From: Citrus sinensis
Lineage: Eukaryota > Streptophyta > Magnoliopsida > Sapindales > Rutaceae
Direction: 5' to 3'
Length of the DNA stretch: 64,000 bases
NCBI RefSeq assembly: GCF_022201045.2
Contig: NC_068559.1
Span: 28,465,501 to 28,529,500 of the forward strand
Under the pieces are notes generated by a model. That model made no database searches. It was not told the origin of the DNA and was given only the letters and a program-made list of their open reading frames with translations. The number at the start of each line of letters is the position of its first letter. The first letter of the stretch is position 1. The position numbers were made by a program, and so were the translations under genes. Shown in pieces: positions 30,847 to 39,117 of the stretch.

Positions 30847-30855
30847 TTGAAGTAA
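30847..30855. repeat. Target-site duplication of the MULE (left)
   Basis: TTGAAGTAA lies directly before the left terminal repeat and recurs exactly at 39109-39117 directly after the right terminal repeat. A 9-bp duplication is characteristic of Mutator-like insertions. Confidence 0.95.
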
Positions 30856-30935
30856 GGGAAATTTACAAAACAAGCCAAAAAAAGAAGGCATTTTTCAACT
30901 TTAACCCTTCAAATTTTTTTCTTTCAACATTAGTC
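30856..30935 (+). repeat. Left terminal inverted repeat of the MULE
   Basis: The block AGGCATTTTTCAACTTTAAC, followed by CC(T/C)(T/C)TCAAATTTTTTTC, occurs in the same place in the inverted right end. Similarity is strong for about 75 to 80 bases and fades over a further 40. Confidence 0.93.
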
Positions 30936-31155
30936 AAATCACCAAATTGTGAACGAAATTACCCTCCTCATTCTCACGTTTTCCTCAAGCAAATTCCTTC
31001 CTCTCTCATCAAAATCTCATCACCGAAAGTTTTATAGATTGTCGGCGGCAGCGTACATCGGCAGCGGAGGAAGTTGTTGGCACTTGAAAGAAGCTAAATC
31101 ACATTGAAAATCTTCGGAGATCTCCAAAATCAAAGAAAAAAATTGAAAACCCTAG

Positions 31156-32051
31156 GTGAGTTGTTATTGCCGTTTTTCTTGTTGTTGTTTGGGTTGCTGT
31201 TGTTGTTTGGGATGTTGTTGTTGTTTGGGTTGTTGTTGTTGTTTGGGATGTTGTTGTTGTTGGTGGTGTTTTAATGGCGGTGCTGGTGAGATGCATGTGG
31301 GAAAGGGAAGAGAAGAGAAAGGGGGGAAGCCAACTCGCGCTGCGTCGCACGCGAGATGCGCGCGGCGTGCGCACCTCGCGCGCGCGAGATGGGCGTGTCG
31401 CGCGCATCTCGCATGCGACATGCGCATGTCGTGCGCACGAGGTACGCACGCCGCACGCATCTCGTGTGCGACGCAGCGCATGTCGCACGCGAGATGCGCA
31501 CTGCACGCCCATCTCGCGCGCGCGAGGTGCGCACGACGCCCGCATCTCGCGTGCAACAGGCGCATGTCGCGCGCGTGAGGTGCGAACGCCGTGCGTGACA
31601 TGCGCATGTCGCACGCAAGATGGGCGCGACACGCCCATCTCGCGCGCGCGACATGCGCGACATGCGCATGTCGCACGCAAGATGGGCGCGACACGCCCAT
31701 CTCGCGCGCGCGACATGCGCGTGTCGCACGCGAGATGCGCGCGGCACACCCATCTCGCGCGCGCGAGGTGTGCACGCCGCGCGCATCTCGTGTGCGACAG
31801 GCGCTGCGTCACACTCGAGATGCGCACGTTGCGCCCATCTCGTGCGCGAGGGCGCGGCCTCGCGTGAGCGAGTTGCGCTAGGCTCGCGCGAGGGAAGCCA
31901 AGCGCGCGCGAGTTGCGTGCAGGCAAGCAGCTCGCGTGCTTGGCTTCCCTCGCGCGAGCCTGTCGCACCAAGAGGCAGTGCGCAGTGTTGACTTAATTTT
32001 TTTTCTTTTGTTCATAATTTTTTAATGTGTGATACTTTTAACTTGTACCAG
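31156..32051 (+). other. Predicted 5'-UTR intron of the MULE Ulp1 gene
   Basis: A strong donor, CCCTAG/GTGAGT, occurs at 31156. A good acceptor, TTGTACCAG/ATAAATG, lies four bases before the start codon at 32056. Nothing between them is a credible coding sequence. The intron would contain the entire GC-rich palindrome array. Confidence 0.6.
31330..31960. repeat. GC-rich palindrome array (MULE left subterminal region)
   Basis: About 630 bases of very CpG-rich sequence in an otherwise AT-rich window. It is built from short inverted units such as GACATGCGCATGTC (exact at 31417-31430, 31597-31610 and 31659-31672; one mismatch at 31712-31725) and GATGGGCGCGACACGCCCATC. A unit of about 62 bases is repeated directly at 31598-31659 and 31660-31721. 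The long open frames on both strands here are a by-product of stop-poor GC repeats and share no codon logic, so I do not call them genes. Confidence 0.93.
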
Positions 32052-32055
32052 ATAA

Positions 32056-35000
32056 ATGGGCAAATCAAAATTTGCATTGCATAACCCATCCGGACCGATT
32101 AAAGAACCGGGAATGATGAAGATACCTTGTGTTGATCACTTCCCTGGGCGTATCACGAGTATGTGCAAATTAGATGTCGTTGTTAATGCCATCCGGGAAA
32201 AATTAACAAGGCAACAGTTAAAGCTATTCAAAGACGATATATTTGGGCATTTCCTACAGTGCCGGAGCTATCCGTTCAGTGGCGTGATTGTGCACAATAT
32301 ATTGCTTCGGCAAGTGTCACATGGCGATGGAAATGACAAAGATGAGTTATGGTTTCAAGTTGGCGACCATTTGATACGGCTATCGATTGGAGAGTGGTGC
32401 CTAGTAACGGGACTTTGCTATGGCGAAAAAGTATTCCTGACGAAGCATAAAACAAATCATAGGTTACTTAATAAGTACTTTGGAGGCAGGATTCGCGATA
32501 TAAATCTTGGCCAGTTCGAGGAAATATTTATGAACTTACGCTTCAAGACTATGAATGACACTGATGCGCTAAAAATTGTCATGTTTTACTTTGCTGATAG
32601 AGTGCTACACGGAAGAAAGGATCATTGTCAAATCAATTTCAATTTACTTAATGAGGTAGATGACATAAATCATTTTCGAAGTATTTCGTGGGGTCATTTG
32701 TCATGGGAAACAATATATAAAAGCATTGATAATGTATTGAACGGCAAAGCCAAAAAATTTAAGAAGGCAAGCGCAGAAAATCCATTGCATAGAATTGAGA
32801 AATACAACTTTTATGGCTTTACGTCGGCAGTGCATGTGAGTGAAGAAGTTTTTTTTATAACTTGGTTTTGTTATAATAAATATTTAATGACACATTTTTT
32901 TACTTCATATCTTTCCTTGTTGAAGGCATGGATTTTTGAAGCGATCGAAGGACTACCATTAGAGTGGGTGGAGAAAATTAAGAGGAAGGGTGCTCGGATC
33001 GTGCGATGGAAGCCTGTGGCTTCTTCAAATATTAACTTCGGCGAAGTGTATTCATACCTGAACGAGCATCTTGTAAGTCATTTATATGTATGTTTGTATA
33101 TAAGTATTACATAATATATGGTTATACTAATTGGAAATTTGGTAATCTTTACGACAGGATGACACCATTTTCCAAACCCTGAAACCGGATGCAAAGGAGA
33201 GAGCCACAAATTATTGGAAGAGTGTCGAGGATTACGTGCCATATTTGCCAAGTTGGGTCCGTAATGTGGGTATCATCTATAATATCATTGAAAATCGGAT
33301 GCAAAGTCATTTATATGTTTGTTTTTTTGGTATTTACTGTTTTCTGTTTTACTTGGTGCAGCACCAGCCTTCAATCAATGCGCCATCCAGTACAAGGCCA
33401 AACGAGGTGGATCCTGACCCCACGAGCCCAATAGGACTGGAGCATAGTCCTGTTGAGGATGCCGGTGCTACCGACGACCATTATGAATCCGCACATGATT
33501 CAGATGACAGAAATGAGCCAGAGGTAACTTCTGTCGTCCTGAACATTTACAATGCACATATACATATCCGATATTTTGTCATTACTTTCTTATTTGTGTA
33601 AATTATAGGCAAAGACTAAGTTCCGCAATGATTATTTCGTTGGACGACTGGATAAAATAAAGTCTTCCATTCACGAGTTGAGGTCGGAACTTCAGACTGG
33701 ACACAGTTCCATTAACGAACTGAGGTCAGAACTTATGGCGGAACGCAGAGAAGCACAACAATATAGAGCAGCGGCCATGGGGTTTATGGCTTCGTTTGGC
33801 GCGGGTGCTTTAAAGGGCGCGTACGATGATTCTTTGTTTGGTCCCGCACCCTCGGTGAGCAAGTTTCGTATGTTTTCGTTATGTTATTATGATTTCAAAC
33901 CCGAAATTATGTTAATATGTTCATCTCCTCGAAACAACAGGCCCCAGATTGCTATGGTCCGAACGTTGATGCTGGCTATGGTACGCATACTGATGCTGGT
34001 AATAACGACGAGCACACCCCTATGTCCTTGTACAATCTACATGGGGACATATGTGATAACGGTGTACAGATATTCACGGAGGCACCTCCCGGTGTTAGTA
34101 AGTTTGGGCGTCCGTACCGACCGTCGTATATATTTGGCAGTCCTTACTTTATTCCTCCTTTCAAGAGAGTTAGGAATGTCAGGGCTTTACCCGCACTCAA
34201 CATTACGGACTATGAAATTGATGAAAGATCGAGTGTGGATATGAATCCGCTTAGGGGACTAGAAGACTCAAGACTATGTGAGGAGTTTGATCAGTGGTTT
34301 GCCGGCAACATTTCCGTGGATCGACTCGTCCAACAGTCTCGAAATTTCTTTGAAATACTCATGGGCAATGCTTCGATGAGGTGGCTTGGTGACGAAGTAA
34401 GCGTGTTTAATGGTCAGTACATTACAATACACAATAATATTTCTGCTGGCATGGATATTGATATAAATTTACTTGGTATAATCCCTTCACAGCATATTCA
34501 CACGTATTACCGCTTGATCAGCGAGAAGCAACTGCGGTTTCCAAATGCACTACCACAACGCGTCACGCATACAGATACATACTTTTGGGCTTGTTTTCAA
34601 ATTTTATAATCATTAATTATAATTTCGATGTTTTAAATATCTCGAAATGTTATTAATTTTCTACTCATCGTGTAATAGGTGTTTCTAAAGCAATTATGGA
34701 ATAATGGTAGTTGTGATGTCAATTCATTACAATATGGCAACAACTTGAGCAGCTATATGGATGGGCAGGAAGATCTCATGTCCAAACCGTTTACGGATGT
34801 CAATATGGTAAGAATTGTCACTCAATCTTATGGTAATTGTGTATAAAATATACTAATTTATTTATGTAGATATTCATCCCTGTGAATTTGGGCGGCGATC
34901 ATTGGGTACTAGCTCGAGCGGACCTTCGCGCAAGGAGGATGCAGATTTACGACTTGTTGGTTACCTTTCGCGAGGACAAAACATATTTGCGTAAATTCAA

Positions 35001-35268
35001 ACCTCTTCAGGTCGTCTTCCCTCAATGGCTTCAAGATGTTGGATTCTACAATATTCGATCTGAGCTGCAGAGTACCGACCCTTGGAAAGTAAGAATCGTT
35101 AAGGATGTGCCCCAACAATCACCTGGAAGTGGTGATTGCGGTGTATTTATGTTGATGTTTACAATGTATTTGATGTTCGGGCTAAAATTTGATTTTGATA
35201 GTAGCCACGGGCATTACTTCAGGAAGAAAATTGCTGTAGATATATTCACTGGCGATATTGCCTTGTAA
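32056..35268 (+). CDS. MULE-borne DUF1985 / Ulp1-type cysteine protease
   Basis: This is a transposon gene of the Ulp1 (C48) SUMO-protease fold. Cellular Ulp1 enzymes remove SUMO from proteins; the role of the transposon version is unknown. Predicted exons are 32056-32835, 32926-33072, 33158-33265, 33362-33523, 33609-33854, 33941-34396, 34493-34588, 34679-34807 and 34870-35268. All are phase 0 and give 840 residues. The N-terminal part matches DUF1985 (FPFSG-like YPFSGVIVHNILLRQV, then LWFQVGDHLIRLSIGEWCLVTGLCYG). A short helical stretch with repeated ELRSEL lies near the middle (exon 5). The protease core holds GGDHWV (H719), IYD (D736), Q791 and GSGDCGVF (C798), a complete His-Asp-Gln-Cys set. 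The exon 7 donor must be GC (TTTTGG/GCTTGT) or undefined. There is no in-frame stop in the model. It converges on the transposase gene, 214 bases apart. Confidence 0.83.
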
Positions 35269-35481
35269 GTCGTATTGTATTAAGACTTGATGTATGGATG
35301 TAGATTGTTTTTTTAATAGATATAAACTTTTGATATATTCATATATTTAGCTATAAGTAATTATTGATCAACTTTAGTACTCATCATGCAAATGAACATA
35401 ACATAATATACCTCATTACATATAATTGTAATATAAATTATAATAAGAGTTCATAATTCATAATTAGTTACAACGACACAG

Positions 35482-38103
35482 TCAGTTTGGATTCGACACA
35501 ATGGGATTTTTACATCTCTTGCGGTTATGACCTGGTTGGTTGCATTGACCACATCTCACAGTTCTTCGGTTAACATCCTCATCGATAGAAGGAATTCTTA
35601 ACTCTGGACGACGACCAGGTGGTGGTGCTTCGATCGGTGGGTTAACTTTAATTTCCTGAATTTCTTCTGGAATGTCCCAATCTGTCATGTCCCCAACCGG
35701 CTCTACTAGTTCTGCATATACCATGACCAATGAATCTTTAGAGTAATAATCAGAGCAAAGACTTATGTAATCCACACGGACGATCAGACAAGCAGCAATT
35801 GCATGCGCACAAACAAGCTGATCGAGTTGGAATACTCTACAGGAGCAAGTTCTTTCATGAATGTCAACTATCCCTTCCTTCATACCACCACCCAAAACAT
35901 GAAATCGATGCTGAGACACTGGCCGAACGGTCATTCTTTCGGCCAAAATTCTCCTTTCGCCGACTATCTCATCTGCCCACGTCGTTAGACGAGTGCTCAT
36001 CAATTCAGCGACAATTTTCCTGTCATAAAACCATTGCTGTAATGTTTTTCTAAAGTGATCAACAAGATAAGTAACAGGAAATTTTCGCGGTTCCCTCATT
36101 AAAGAATTCACGCTTTCTGCAATGTTGGTGGTAAGTATGCTGTATCTCCTACCTTCAAATTCGGACCTTGCCCAATTACACGTGCCCACATTATTCTCTA
36201 AGTAATCAGCCGCGGCCGAGTGGAGCATCCACAACCCTTCAAGTTGTCTTTTAAATTCTTCGTGTCCATATGCCTTTGCTGCATTAATAAAAGCTGGCTC
36301 GAATTGATCCCAAATAGCTTTGGACATCCTGAATTTAGACTTAATGTTGCCTTTGACATGATAAAAACAAACTCCATGACTAGCAGTGTGAAATGCTTTT
36401 AAAACGGCTCGCTTGATGGCAGTGCATCGATCAGAGATAAATACTAACTCTGGCCTATCGCCAATCACTCCGTGTAACTTCGTCATAAACCATTCCCAAG
36501 CATCATTGTTTTCTGAATCCATGACCCCAATAGCTAACGGATACAGTTGATTATTACCATCCAGACATGTTGCTACAAACATGCTTCCACGATATAGCCC
36601 CTTCAAATGAGTGCCATCTACAGCGATCACAGGCCTTATGTACTGTGTGAAGCCCTTAATGGAAGATCCAAGCGCAACAAAGTAGTATAAGAAATTATCA
36701 TCTCCATCTCGCTGGAGGTGTGTCACTGTGCCCTCATTCGCTTTGGTCAAAACGTGAGAGTATTTGGGAAGTAAGTTGTATGACTCTGCAGGGTTCCCTC
36801 GTACTATTTCAAGACCGACTTCTTTAGCCCGATATGCTTGCTAATATGTTAACTGGACCCCGTATTCTTGCTGCATGTCTGCTCTAATGTCATTCGGCGT
36901 GTATATCCGTTTATCCTGAATAAATTTATCTGCAATAAGATGGCCAACAACCCGACTCCTAACTTGGCGGAGGCCACTAGGCAAAACCTCATTAGAGCAC
37001 GTATGAACATTGTCAACTCTTCTCACTACCCAAGGAACATTATGCTCATCCGAACCTCTTGTTGTGCGAAGACGCCAATTACATGATTCCGAAGAACAAT
37101 GAGCCTCAAAGCGTGTCGTTGTGGACCGTGCAATCTTGAAATCAAACTTTTCCCGCAAGGCCACTTTGCGCAATTCCAGTATTAACTCATTCTTCTCAAT
37201 GAACAACTTTCCCACACCAATGTCGGCAGAATTACAGCTTCTAACTAAGTCTGGAGCAACCAAGTTTGAAGGCAAAACTGGAGCAAGACTCACCAGGTGA
37301 TCAACTGTTGTCCTCCTCCTCGAACGGGCTATCGGAGGAATAGGTCTATTCTCTCTATTGTTAATAGGAATATCATACTGATGCTCATCCTCATTATTGA
37401 TAGGAATATCGGAATGACCAGTGTCCCTATCATCAACTTCAGTATTAGAGTTCATGCCTTGCACATTATCAGCTTCTGTGTTGTTGGTGTTATAACCAGG
37501 ATCATCATAACTGCGGAACTCATTATTTTGAAATGGAGAGTAATGTTGCCCTAACGATGTCCCTAATGGTAACACATTATCTTCAACATCCGCTATCGTG
37601 ATGCCATTATCATCAATAGTGTCATTGTTTTCGTTGACTGGTGAGTAATGTTGTTGGAACGACATTTGTTGTGGTAACACCTCTTCCTCAATATCAGGGA
37701 CAGACTCGTTTGCTCTAAGCGAACTTTCACTTTCCACAAGTGGCTCAGGATTTTCGGCCAGAACTCGAGGATGTGTGGTGACAAATATAGGGATGCATCC
37801 ATAATTGACCACATCAGAGGCCATGTGCAGCACAACATTAACCATTTCATCATTAAATATATCCATAGGTAGTGAACATGCACGATACATTGTGTTACTA
37901 GATCTCAAAGTTGTCTTCATCGACAAACTATATTCAATATGATTTATCTGTAAAACTTCATACACCCTTGCCATAAATTGCTCAAACGTACAATCTTTCC
38001 GAACTAAAAATGTTGTATTCTTCGCATTCACGTATTCCGTACGGCCATCTGCTAATGTCTCCCACCAACCGTCATAACATAATTGAAGTACAACGGAATC
38101 CAT
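35482..38103 (-). pseudogene. MULE mudrA-type transposase, interrupted by one in-frame TAG
   Basis: One reading frame runs from ATG 38103 to the stop at 35482 (874 codons) and is broken only by TAG at 36843-36841. Before the stop (420 residues): a PB1-like acidic N-terminus with a duplicated QHYSP segment, and a MuDR/WRKY-GCM1-type zinc region (C336-X4-C341 ... H367-X-C369). After it: the DDE transposase core (D496 in AVDGTH, D558 in FISDR, E663 in TTNIAESVN), a SWIM finger (CSC ... CAH) and a C-terminal CCHC knuckle (CGQCNQPGHNRKRC). The stop lies just after YGVQLTY and before QAYRAKE, where the family usually has one further residue, often Trp, so a TGG-to-TAG change is the simplest cause. 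All catalytic residues are present. A splice acceptor (TAG/GTTTAATG) immediately precedes the start codon. Confidence 0.92.
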
Positions 38104-38108
38104 TAAAC

Positions 38109-38806
38109 CTAAAAAAAAAACAAAAGAGATAAGATTTCACGCTACAAAACCTAGTAAAAATGAATATGCAGTACATTTATGTGGATAAAATGAAGTATAC
38201 AATTTTTGATTTACTTCGTCTCATCGTAAGCTTCGAAATGATATATTATACGCCTAAAACGGACACATGTAGCCCAAGTTATTACTTTCGGAAAATAACT
38301 TAAATTTAGTGAGACAGGCAGTGGGACAGGTGCATGTCTCACATAAAACCAGTAAATTTATGTGAGACAGGCGCCTGTCCCACTTGCCTGTCTCACATAA
38401 AACCAGTGGTAACAAGTGAGACAGGCGCCTGTCTCACACGCCTGTCTCACACGCCTGTCTCACACGCCTGTCCCACTTGCCTGTCCCACTTGCCTGTCCC
38501 ACTTGCCTGTCGCACATATTTTGGTGAGACAGGCAAGTGAGACAGGTGCCTGTCTCACATAAAACCAGTAGATTTATGTGAGACAGGTGCCTGTCTCACT
38601 TGTTCTGGGTTTTTGTTTTACTCGATTTTTCAGGGGTTTCAATGATTGATTTTCATTTCTCAACTCAAACTAACTACTTTAACAAGTCACATTGTTTTGT
38701 TAATGAAAAATAACAACATTTGCAATAAAAACTCACTTCAATTTCGAACTCAAATGATAAAATCAATAGATTAAAAGTTTAGGTTATGGTAAGAGTATAA
38801 ACTAAC
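38109..38806 (-). other. Predicted 5'-UTR intron of the MULE transposase gene
   Basis: On the minus strand a donor CTTAAG/GTTAGT (38806) and an acceptor TTTTTTTAG/GTTTAATG (38109) bracket 698 noncoding bases that contain the right palindrome array. A TATAAA at 38980-38975 upstream gives a plausible transcription start near 38950. Confidence 0.55.
38310..38602. repeat. GTGAGACAGGCGCCTGTCTCAC palindrome array (MULE right subterminal region)
   Basis: Many copies of GTGAGACAGG and its complement CCTGTCTCAC, often meeting head to head as GACAGGCGCCTGTC (38366-38379, 38420-38433) or as GACAGGTGCCTGTC (near 38539 and 38582). Single CCTGTCTCACA or CCTGTCCCACTTG units occur in tandem between 38435 and 38515. 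The spacer ATAAAACCAGTA recurs between blocks. Confidence 0.93.
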
Positions 38807-38974
38807 CTTAAGAAGCTCTTCAATTGATAATTATATCTTCAATTATGTAATACTTGTTTGATGAAATTTGCTAATTTATTGAGAGTAATGGAGTTTGTTG
38901 AGTGATGAAATTTGTTAAGTTGAAAAGGGAAAAGTGGTGGAAGTGCTGGACTTGATAAGGGAAAGTGGCATGCC

Positions 38975-38980
38975 TTTATA
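38975..38980 (-). promoter_or_regulatory. TATA box candidate of the MULE transposase gene
   Basis: TATAAA on the minus strand within AAATTTATAAAGGCATG lies about 170 bases upstream of the predicted first splice donor and just inside the right terminal repeat. Confidence 0.45.
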
Positions 38981-39028
38981 AATTTGATGAAAATGATGAG
39001 GATAATGTAGTCCAAAAATAGGGTGTTT

Positions 39029-39108
39029 GGCTAATTATGATAGAAAAAAATTTGAGGGGTTAAAGTTGAAAAATGCCTAATTTTTTTGACTATTTTTATA
39101 AATTTCCC
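39029..39108 (-). repeat. Right terminal inverted repeat of the MULE
   Basis: Read on the minus strand it begins GGGAAATTTATAAAAATAG and contains AGGCATTTTTCAACTTTAAC at the same distance from the end as the left repeat. Confidence 0.93.
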
Positions 39109-39117
39109 TTGAAGTAA
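39109..39117. repeat. Target-site duplication of the MULE (right)
   Basis: TTGAAGTAA, identical to 30847-30855. Confidence 0.95.

Follow-up and report, generated by a model that had tools for sequence, protein, structure and literature searches.

A window of 64,000 nucleotides of the Citrus sinensis genome (NC_068559.1, positions 28,465,501 to 28,529,500), in whose coordinates all window positions are given here, contains a Mutator-like element with terminal inverted repeats (TIR-MULE) at 30856–39108 (8253 bp), and an array of short, largely palindromic sites lies near each end of this element. The element is bounded by an identical 9-bp target-site duplication, TTGAAGTAA, at 30847–30855 and 39109–39117. 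Its left terminal inverted repeat (TIR; 30856–30976, + strand) begins with GGGAAATTTA and its right TIR (38988–39108, − strand) finishes with TAAATTTCCC; the arms, 123 nt each at 30854–30976 and 38988–39110, are 81% complementary. The order from left to right is TIR, left array, a gene on the + strand, a transposase gene on the − strand, right array and TIR. The + strand gene (32056–35268, an unspliced reading of open stretches with several exons) has DUF1985 (Pfam PF09331, E 1.3e-17) in the first of its open stretches and the Ulp1 domain Peptidase_C48 in the last (34870–35268; PF02902, E 1.3e-19), in line on one strand and opposite to the transposase. The transposase (35482–38136, − strand), with the domains PF10551 (E 8.1e-20), PF00872, PF04434 (SWIM) and PF03108, consists of the open stretches 35482–36840 and 36841–38136 with an in-frame stop between them. 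This stop, at 36841–36843, interrupts a frame that is single and long in many relatives, often running uninterrupted for 884–918 amino acids, and the window copy is therefore probably not autonomous. With its MULE transposase domain, TIRs and 9-bp duplication the element belongs to the TIR-MULEs, and with the Ulp1 domain in the gene beside the transposase it belongs to the Ulp1-carrying MULEs.

Each array is placed between one TIR and the start of one gene, upstream of that gene. The left array (31330–31975) begins about 350 bp inside the inner edge of its TIR, precedes the DUF1985 start codon and is CpG-rich, with an observed/expected ratio (o/e) of 1.61; the right array (38300–38600) lies about 390 bp inside its TIR and precedes the transposase start. 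An earlier note on this DNA had proposed that both contain one 14-bp palindromic core, within 31417–38433. All copies listed there are present. In the left array, GACATGCGCATGTC occurs exactly at 31417, 31597 and 31659, with the near-copies GACATGCGCGTGTC (31712, one mismatch) and AACAGGCGCATGTC (31555); in the right array, GACAGGCGCCTGTC occurs exactly at 38366 and 38420, together with GACAGGTGCCTGTC at 38541 and 38582 and GACAGGTGCATGTC at 38325. The proposed span, however, ended too early, at 38433, and misses two sites (38541 and 38582). The window had 26 matches over both strands when up to two mismatches were allowed, versus a mean of 3.2 (maximum 10) in 100 dinucleotide shuffles. Across the 300-Mb genome (11 contigs, the basis of all genome-wide counts), the core pattern GACANGYGCNTGTC had 501 forward and 489 reverse matches, versus 5 and 6 for its reversed form. 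Not all motif matches come from these MULEs: loci L001–L003 had one match each in seemingly ordinary sequence, and at L076 (C1:13964400–13964800) GACAAGTGCTTGTC lies within GGGCGACAAGTGCTTGTCTCCC, apparently a different repeat with no relation to the MULE arrays. About 1 kb of near-symmetric right-type sites was observed at L074 (C2:2140150–2141250), like a foldback element or a derivative resembling a miniature inverted-repeat transposable element, and sites with similar spacing were found at C2:3538713–3539571.

Comparisons with related copies showed that the core recurs at both ends. A query with the left end yielded 223 candidates, of which 40 were scored; one with the right end yielded 490, of which 42 were scored, two of these as partial matches. 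For each end, 30 loci were examined. Of the left loci, 26 could be paired with an examined right locus; the paired copies had a perfect 9-bp duplication in 22 cases and a duplication with one mismatch in two more. The stretch in which cores were counted began 300 bp inside the element on the left and ran to the start codon, or as far as the examined sequence went; on the right it covered 450–1000 bp inside the end. The left regions contained 50 GACANGYGCNTGTC sites, with at least one in 23 of 30 loci, versus a mean of 0.01 in 200 dinucleotide shuffles; the right regions contained 162, with at least one in every locus, versus 0.015. These counts represent arrays beyond any composition effect and do not imply that single sites are independent, because the shuffles model neither tandem duplication nor common descent. 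A symmetric site clustered near both ends, as had been suggested, was found in 20 of the 26 paired copies. The right core was present in all 26, but the left core was missing in six, so that what the earlier note had named as a refutation applies only in part; these six, like one further core-less left locus, contained 2 to 9 copies of the half-site described below. Array copy number differed strongly from copy to copy. Of nine copies in which neither a transposase nor a DUF1985 domain was listed, all had right cores and six had left cores, and an internally deleted copy of 3108 bp retained both arrays, with 3 left and 8 right cores.

Of the palindromic 14-mers that fit xxxx-N-xx, GACA-N-GC alone occurred in the right regions (29/30 loci). 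Four classes were frequent in the left regions, namely CTCG-N-GC (24 loci), GACA-N-GC (23), TTGC-N-TG (21) and GAGG-N-CG (19), accompanied by rarer ones. GACA-N-GC was the sole class common to both ends in the 30 left and 30 right array regions, which agrees with the shared palindrome of the earlier note, but it was not the commonest on the left, where CTCG-N-GC occurred 70 times versus 50. Inverted pairs of the form GACA-N6-TGTC numbered 52 on the left and 171 on the right.

As judged from the alignments, what is conserved is not quite the 14-bp palindrome but a half-site of greater length, G(Y)G(C/A)GACA(G/T)G. When the arms of all GACA...TGTC pairs were aligned, they agreed beyond the 14-mer, with T or C at −3 between a G at −4 and another at −2, followed by C/A, GACA, G/T, G and mostly C. 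The facing arms of a pair read GTG(C/A)GACA(G/T)GC and GC(C/A)TGTC(G/T)CAC; GTGCGACAGG and GTGAGACAGG are half-sites of this kind. The base before GACA was mostly C in the left array and in other families, or A in the right array (76% of arms). We rejected a palindrome with a fixed 6-bp (GCGC) centre as the conserved unit, given that the spacer between half-sites varies and the half-sites outlast the core. The strict half-site, G.G.GACA(G/T)G, occurred 243 times in 30 of 30 left loci, including all seven without a core, and 490 times in 30 of 30 right loci, with expectations from mononucleotide shuffles of 2.4 and 0.6. Inverted pairs of TGCGACAGG and CCTGTCGCA with 0–10 bases allowed between them numbered 366 genome-wide, versus 0 for the reversed control, and among the matches listed, through C2, the spacer was 1, 2, 3 or 6 bases.

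Half-sites were largely confined to the arrays. In the window, 10 strict half-sites lie in the left array (31479 to 31959), 19 in the right array (38309 to 38590) and one elsewhere (29725), and none was found in 32056–38136, which includes the genes, introns and the stretch between them. Of the 1.5-kb flanks outside the elements, only 2 of the 30 on the left and none of the 30 on the right contained the half-site. Such a density of short motifs in an element's own non-coding tandem repeats is also what characterizes VANC-type targets. Orientation is mixed: there are many inverted pairs, yet the right array combines some of these with a one-orientation run of seven 13-bp units (38426–38516). 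The distinct spacings of pair centres had a mean cosine of 0.33 at a 10.5-bp phase (P 0.0034, uncorrected and from spacings that are not independent), and a scan of periods 7 to 14, on pair centres only, gave top values at 10.25 and 10.5; this phasing is suggestive only. In work of Sasaki from 2022, helical periodicity is said to matter for VANC motifs.

To describe the two arrays as otherwise unrelated, as had been done, was too strong. The flanks of the cores agree too (G at −4, T/C at −3 and G at −2 before GACA), and the left array contains, at 31960, CTGTCGCACCAA, a half-site of the unit of related families; a half-site of this kind was present in 26 of 30 left loci. Several relatives have 30–34-bp repeats of the TTGGTGCGACAGGC...GCCTGTCGCACCAA type at both ends (for example L106/L107 and L104/L105), and in a diverged relative, L080, the CpG-rich repeat and TTGGTGCGACAGG units stand within a single left array. 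Ten relatives read at both ends had strict half-sites at the right end in 10 cases and at the left end in 8. Four of these twenty loci (L072, L081, L109 and L110) were located via motif position, and the elements at C1:9548024 and C2:10319805 were selected for a nearby site; in the seven relatives selected by DUF1985 or transposase position alone, the counts were 7/7 and 5/7. The left ends of related DUF1985 genes contained a strict half-site in 10 of 15 cases, including L079, L110 and L111, which were picked close to sites. Since the half-site is kept at both ends of most relatives (8/10), the simplest history would be that both arrays are diverged versions of one ancestral inverted repeat, rewritten differently at the two ends of the window family. 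The shared feature is better described as a single half-site repeat that occurs at both ends, for the most part as inverted pairs, and appears to have diverged differently in the window's family.

Between families, DUF1985 is more divergent than the transposase, as described for VANC and VANA. Identity of the relatives' DUF1985 to that of the window was 57–59% over the longest pieces and 57–67% over shorter ones, and transposase identity was 77 to 100% among the best 93 of 1016 candidates and about 80–86% between families. At L097 (C3:40820500–40822500), with a DUF1985 60% identical to the window's over 120 residues, a 22-bp array, CGCGCGCGACGAGTGCTTGTCG, was seen before the gene, with TGTCG/CGACA palindromes but no strict half-site.

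A second DUF1985 lineage, 30% identical to the window's at L082, is accompanied by a different palindrome. At L082, L089 and L090, an array before the DUF1985 gene consists of 30-bp repeats (unit GTGTAAAG) around GTGTAAAGAATTCTTTACAC. Genome-wide, this palindrome was found at 9 places and its reversed control at none; 7 of the 9 are no more than 0.7 kb away from a listed DUF1985 domain. At 4–7 kb beyond the L082 DUF1985 lies a MULE transposase in convergent orientation, which shares 43% identity with that of the window. Past the start of this transposase stands a 26-bp palindrome whose GTCGTGTA half-sites are arranged the opposite way. We infer that the two genes belong to one element, whose ends were not found. 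Several L082 half-sites read (C)TGTCG(T/A)GTAAAG; TGTCG is common to GCCTGTCGCACC, and the VANC6 motif AGTTGTCC likewise contains TGTC, which offers a lead that the words of the two lineages may not be wholly unlike. At four other DUF1985 loci (L083, L084, L088 and L091), no comparable array was found in the 1.9–2 kb read.

The DUF1985 part of the window gene is, by profile comparison, homologous to Arabidopsis VANC21. A profile of nine DUF1985 sequences from this genome matched VANC21 (PDB 9lnj/9lnk) with E 4.6e-14, and the window exon alone gave E 0.009. A single-sequence structure prediction of this exon was unusable (mean predicted local distance difference test score, pLDDT, 34.6). According to the parts of the literature available to us, DUF1985 is among the domains shown for VANC proteins, and VANC21 and VANC6 act via short motifs in tandem repeats of the non-coding regions of transposable elements; VANC21 binds YAGTATTAY, VANC6 targets contain AGTTGTCC/AGTTGTAC, and VANC motifs diverge between related elements (PMC5735166). 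Ulp1-carrying VANC genes act on the motifs of their own elements, according to the portion of a review that we used (PMC13317346). Because it is a VANC21 homologue, the DUF1985-Ulp1 protein fits the sequence evidence, as a candidate binder of the arrays, at least as well as the transposase, whose binding the earlier note had suggested for study.

We favour, with slightly better than even confidence, the reading that the arrays are clustered recognition sites of the element's own DUF1985-Ulp1 protein, which would be VANC-like anti-silencing targets. The protein would load onto the non-coding stretch before each gene, and inverted half-sites would probably be bound by a dimer; the ensuing loss of local DNA methylation and silent chromatin would allow both the DUF1985 gene and the transposase to be expressed, and SUMO-protease activity of Ulp1 at the arrays may help. 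A broader proposal is possible but doubtful: TIR-MULEs of this genome may run a VANC-like code with a palindromic word, in which the half-site is retained as unit, spacer and flanks turn over, the second lineage may read its other palindrome, and Ulp1 may de-SUMOylate silencing factors locally.

The proximity of sites to genes was counted on C1 and on C2 up to 28.96 Mb, a span of which the 9-kb neighbourhoods of sites make up 1.5%; domains came from the best 150 of 332 DUF1985 candidates and 150 of 899 PF10551 candidates, and GACANGYGCNTGTC places from the list through 8.87 Mb of C2. A site within 9 kb was found for 9 of 20 listed DUF1985 domains and for 0 of 28 listed top-scoring PF10551 transposases. 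These counts tie the word to this MULE lineage and do not separate the DUF1985 protein from the transposase of that lineage.

Several observations weigh against the DUF1985-Ulp1 protein as the reader of the arrays. Window-like transposases also had a site within 9 kb, in 4 of 13 cases, and only 9 of 43 site clusters on C1 and C2 were near a listed DUF1985 (within 9 kb), as may be expected where elements are non-autonomous. The co-variation does not single out DUF1985, because the motif lineage co-varies with the transposase lineage as well. The left ends of five of the 15 related DUF1985 genes (L085, L087, L092, L097 and L098) had no strict half-site in the 1.9–2 kb read. VANC21 sites, as far as the accessed parts of the report extend, are also intronic or intergenic and in one orientation, whereas here no strict half-site lies in 32056–38136 and many half-sites form inverted pairs (PMC5735166). 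The 13-bp run in the right array is out of the 10.5-bp phase and stood outside the phase test. The right array is CpG-poor (o/e 0.32) and gives no sign of CpG protection; with the left array at 1.61, CpG content was mixed as an indication of hypomethylation and was left unused.

A serious though unlikely alternative is that the MULE transposase binds the half-sites, which would help it to pair the ends as in CACTA elements. The sites lie at both ends inside the TIRs (20 of 26 copies have a core at each end, and all 30 loci per end have half-sites), internally deleted copies such as that of 3108 bp retain both arrays, and the motif lineage accompanies the transposase lineage; mosquito long-TIR MULEs also have short subterminal tandem repeats, in the sections of the report at hand (PMC5225508). 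However, the arrays precede both start codons and stand some 350 and 390 bp inside the inner edges of the TIRs, and unit and spacer turn over between families despite transposases that are about 80–86% identical. None of the 28 listed top-scoring transposases of other MULEs was near a site, but these may use other sites.

We consider it quite improbable that the arrays are recent tandem expansions of an ancestral palindromic promoter repeat, alike by descent and turnover with no selection for binding, and possibly hairpin-forming as a source of small RNA. The same 30–34-bp unit does occur at both ends in related families, the window arrays are different derivatives with strongly variable copy number, and the GACA palindrome is just one of several in the left array. 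Yet in the window's family the two ends have different units around the half-site but retain GACA-G and the preceding G, T/C and G, pair spacing shifts with the half-site unchanged, and two DUF1985 lineages have palindromic arrays of different words. That host auxin response factors (ARFs) use the TGTC cores (TGTCTC on the right, TGTCGC on the left) to drive both genes is very improbable: ARFs bind TGTCNN elements, repeats included, in the part of the source consulted (PMC10690724), and the A before GACA in 76% of right arms reads, with the preceding G, as TGTCTC on the other strand, but conservation reaches past TGTCNN, outward to G, T/C and G (−4 to −2) and inward to G/T-G-C, and the preferred element TGTCGG is not the form used, other TGTCNN being ARF-bound as well.

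The proposed recognition by the DUF1985-Ulp1 protein has its closest parallels in the VANC21 and VANC6 systems of Arabidopsis VANDAL elements, which, in the passages available, share a DUF1985 protein beside a MULE transposase (PMC5735166, PMC10398659), a dense short motif in non-coding tandem repeats that changes between related families, and a DUF1985 protein more divergent than the transposase; homology to the solved VANC21 is a further likeness. VANDALs are called non-TIR MULEs in a review (PMC13317346), whereas the window element, with its 123-nt arms, is not a VANDAL proper. It also differs by the Ulp1 domain in its DUF1985 gene, and by many inverted pairs in two promoter-side arrays, in contrast to the non-palindromic, one-orientation motif of VANC21. 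Eudicot MULEs with Ulp1-carrying VANC genes (KIU and Kaonashi) are alike in having a VANC gene with an Ulp1 domain, which is credited with sequence-specific anti-silencing in the same part of the review, but are described as non-TIR MULEs (PMC13317346).

In En/Spm (CACTA) elements, short TNPA sites are clustered close to each end and occur as both direct and inverted copies. These elements resemble the window element in this but form a different superfamily, and the sites of the window element precede both genes. Ulp1-carrying MULEs were reportedly treated by van Leeuwen in 2007. Those of melon, rice and grapevine likewise have an Ulp1 region, in some families opposite to the transposase, and the main text of the grapevine paper contains no occurrence of 'subterminal', 'tandem' or 'palindrom' (PMC2528002). 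Muta1-type MULEs of Aedes share 8–9 bp target-site duplications, long TIRs and short subterminal tandem repeats, but their repeats of 9–15 bp lie inside the TIR, and the parts of that paper at hand do not mention a DUF1985-Ulp1 gene (PMC5225508). In a non-exhaustive search, with the motifs of Sasaki 2022 outside the comparison, we found no description of a palindromic half-site common to both ends of Ulp1-carrying TIR-MULEs.

If the arrays are indeed read by the DUF1985-Ulp1 protein, VANC-type sequence-specific anti-silencing would extend to TIR-MULEs with a DUF1985-Ulp1 gene, and the target word would have been predicted from sequence alone. At least two lineages of a single genome have homologous DUF1985 genes next to palindromic words that differ, and such matched protein-word pairs would help to study DNA choice by DUF1985 proteins in the light of the solved VANC21 structure. 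The palindromic words might also serve to steer demethylation.

Further observations concern the surroundings of the arrays and genes. An 18-bp tandem repeat, TTGTTGTTGTTTGGGATG, occupies 31179–31261, between the left TIR and the left array. At C4:19391872–19401900, seven DUF1985 domains stand in a row, 1607 bp apart and with one TAA inside each match, as though a DUF1985 gene had been amplified in tandem. At three loci on C1 (L004, L070 and L075, at 5.20, 21.51 and 10.88 Mb), a TIR and an array of GTGCGACAGGCACC are followed by similar sequence, which at L004 continues into a frame beginning MLGGLYGDLPPPSDEDKP, read by eye. This frame presumably resembles the plant splicing factor DRT111, and the three loci look like gene capture by an array-bearing MULE.

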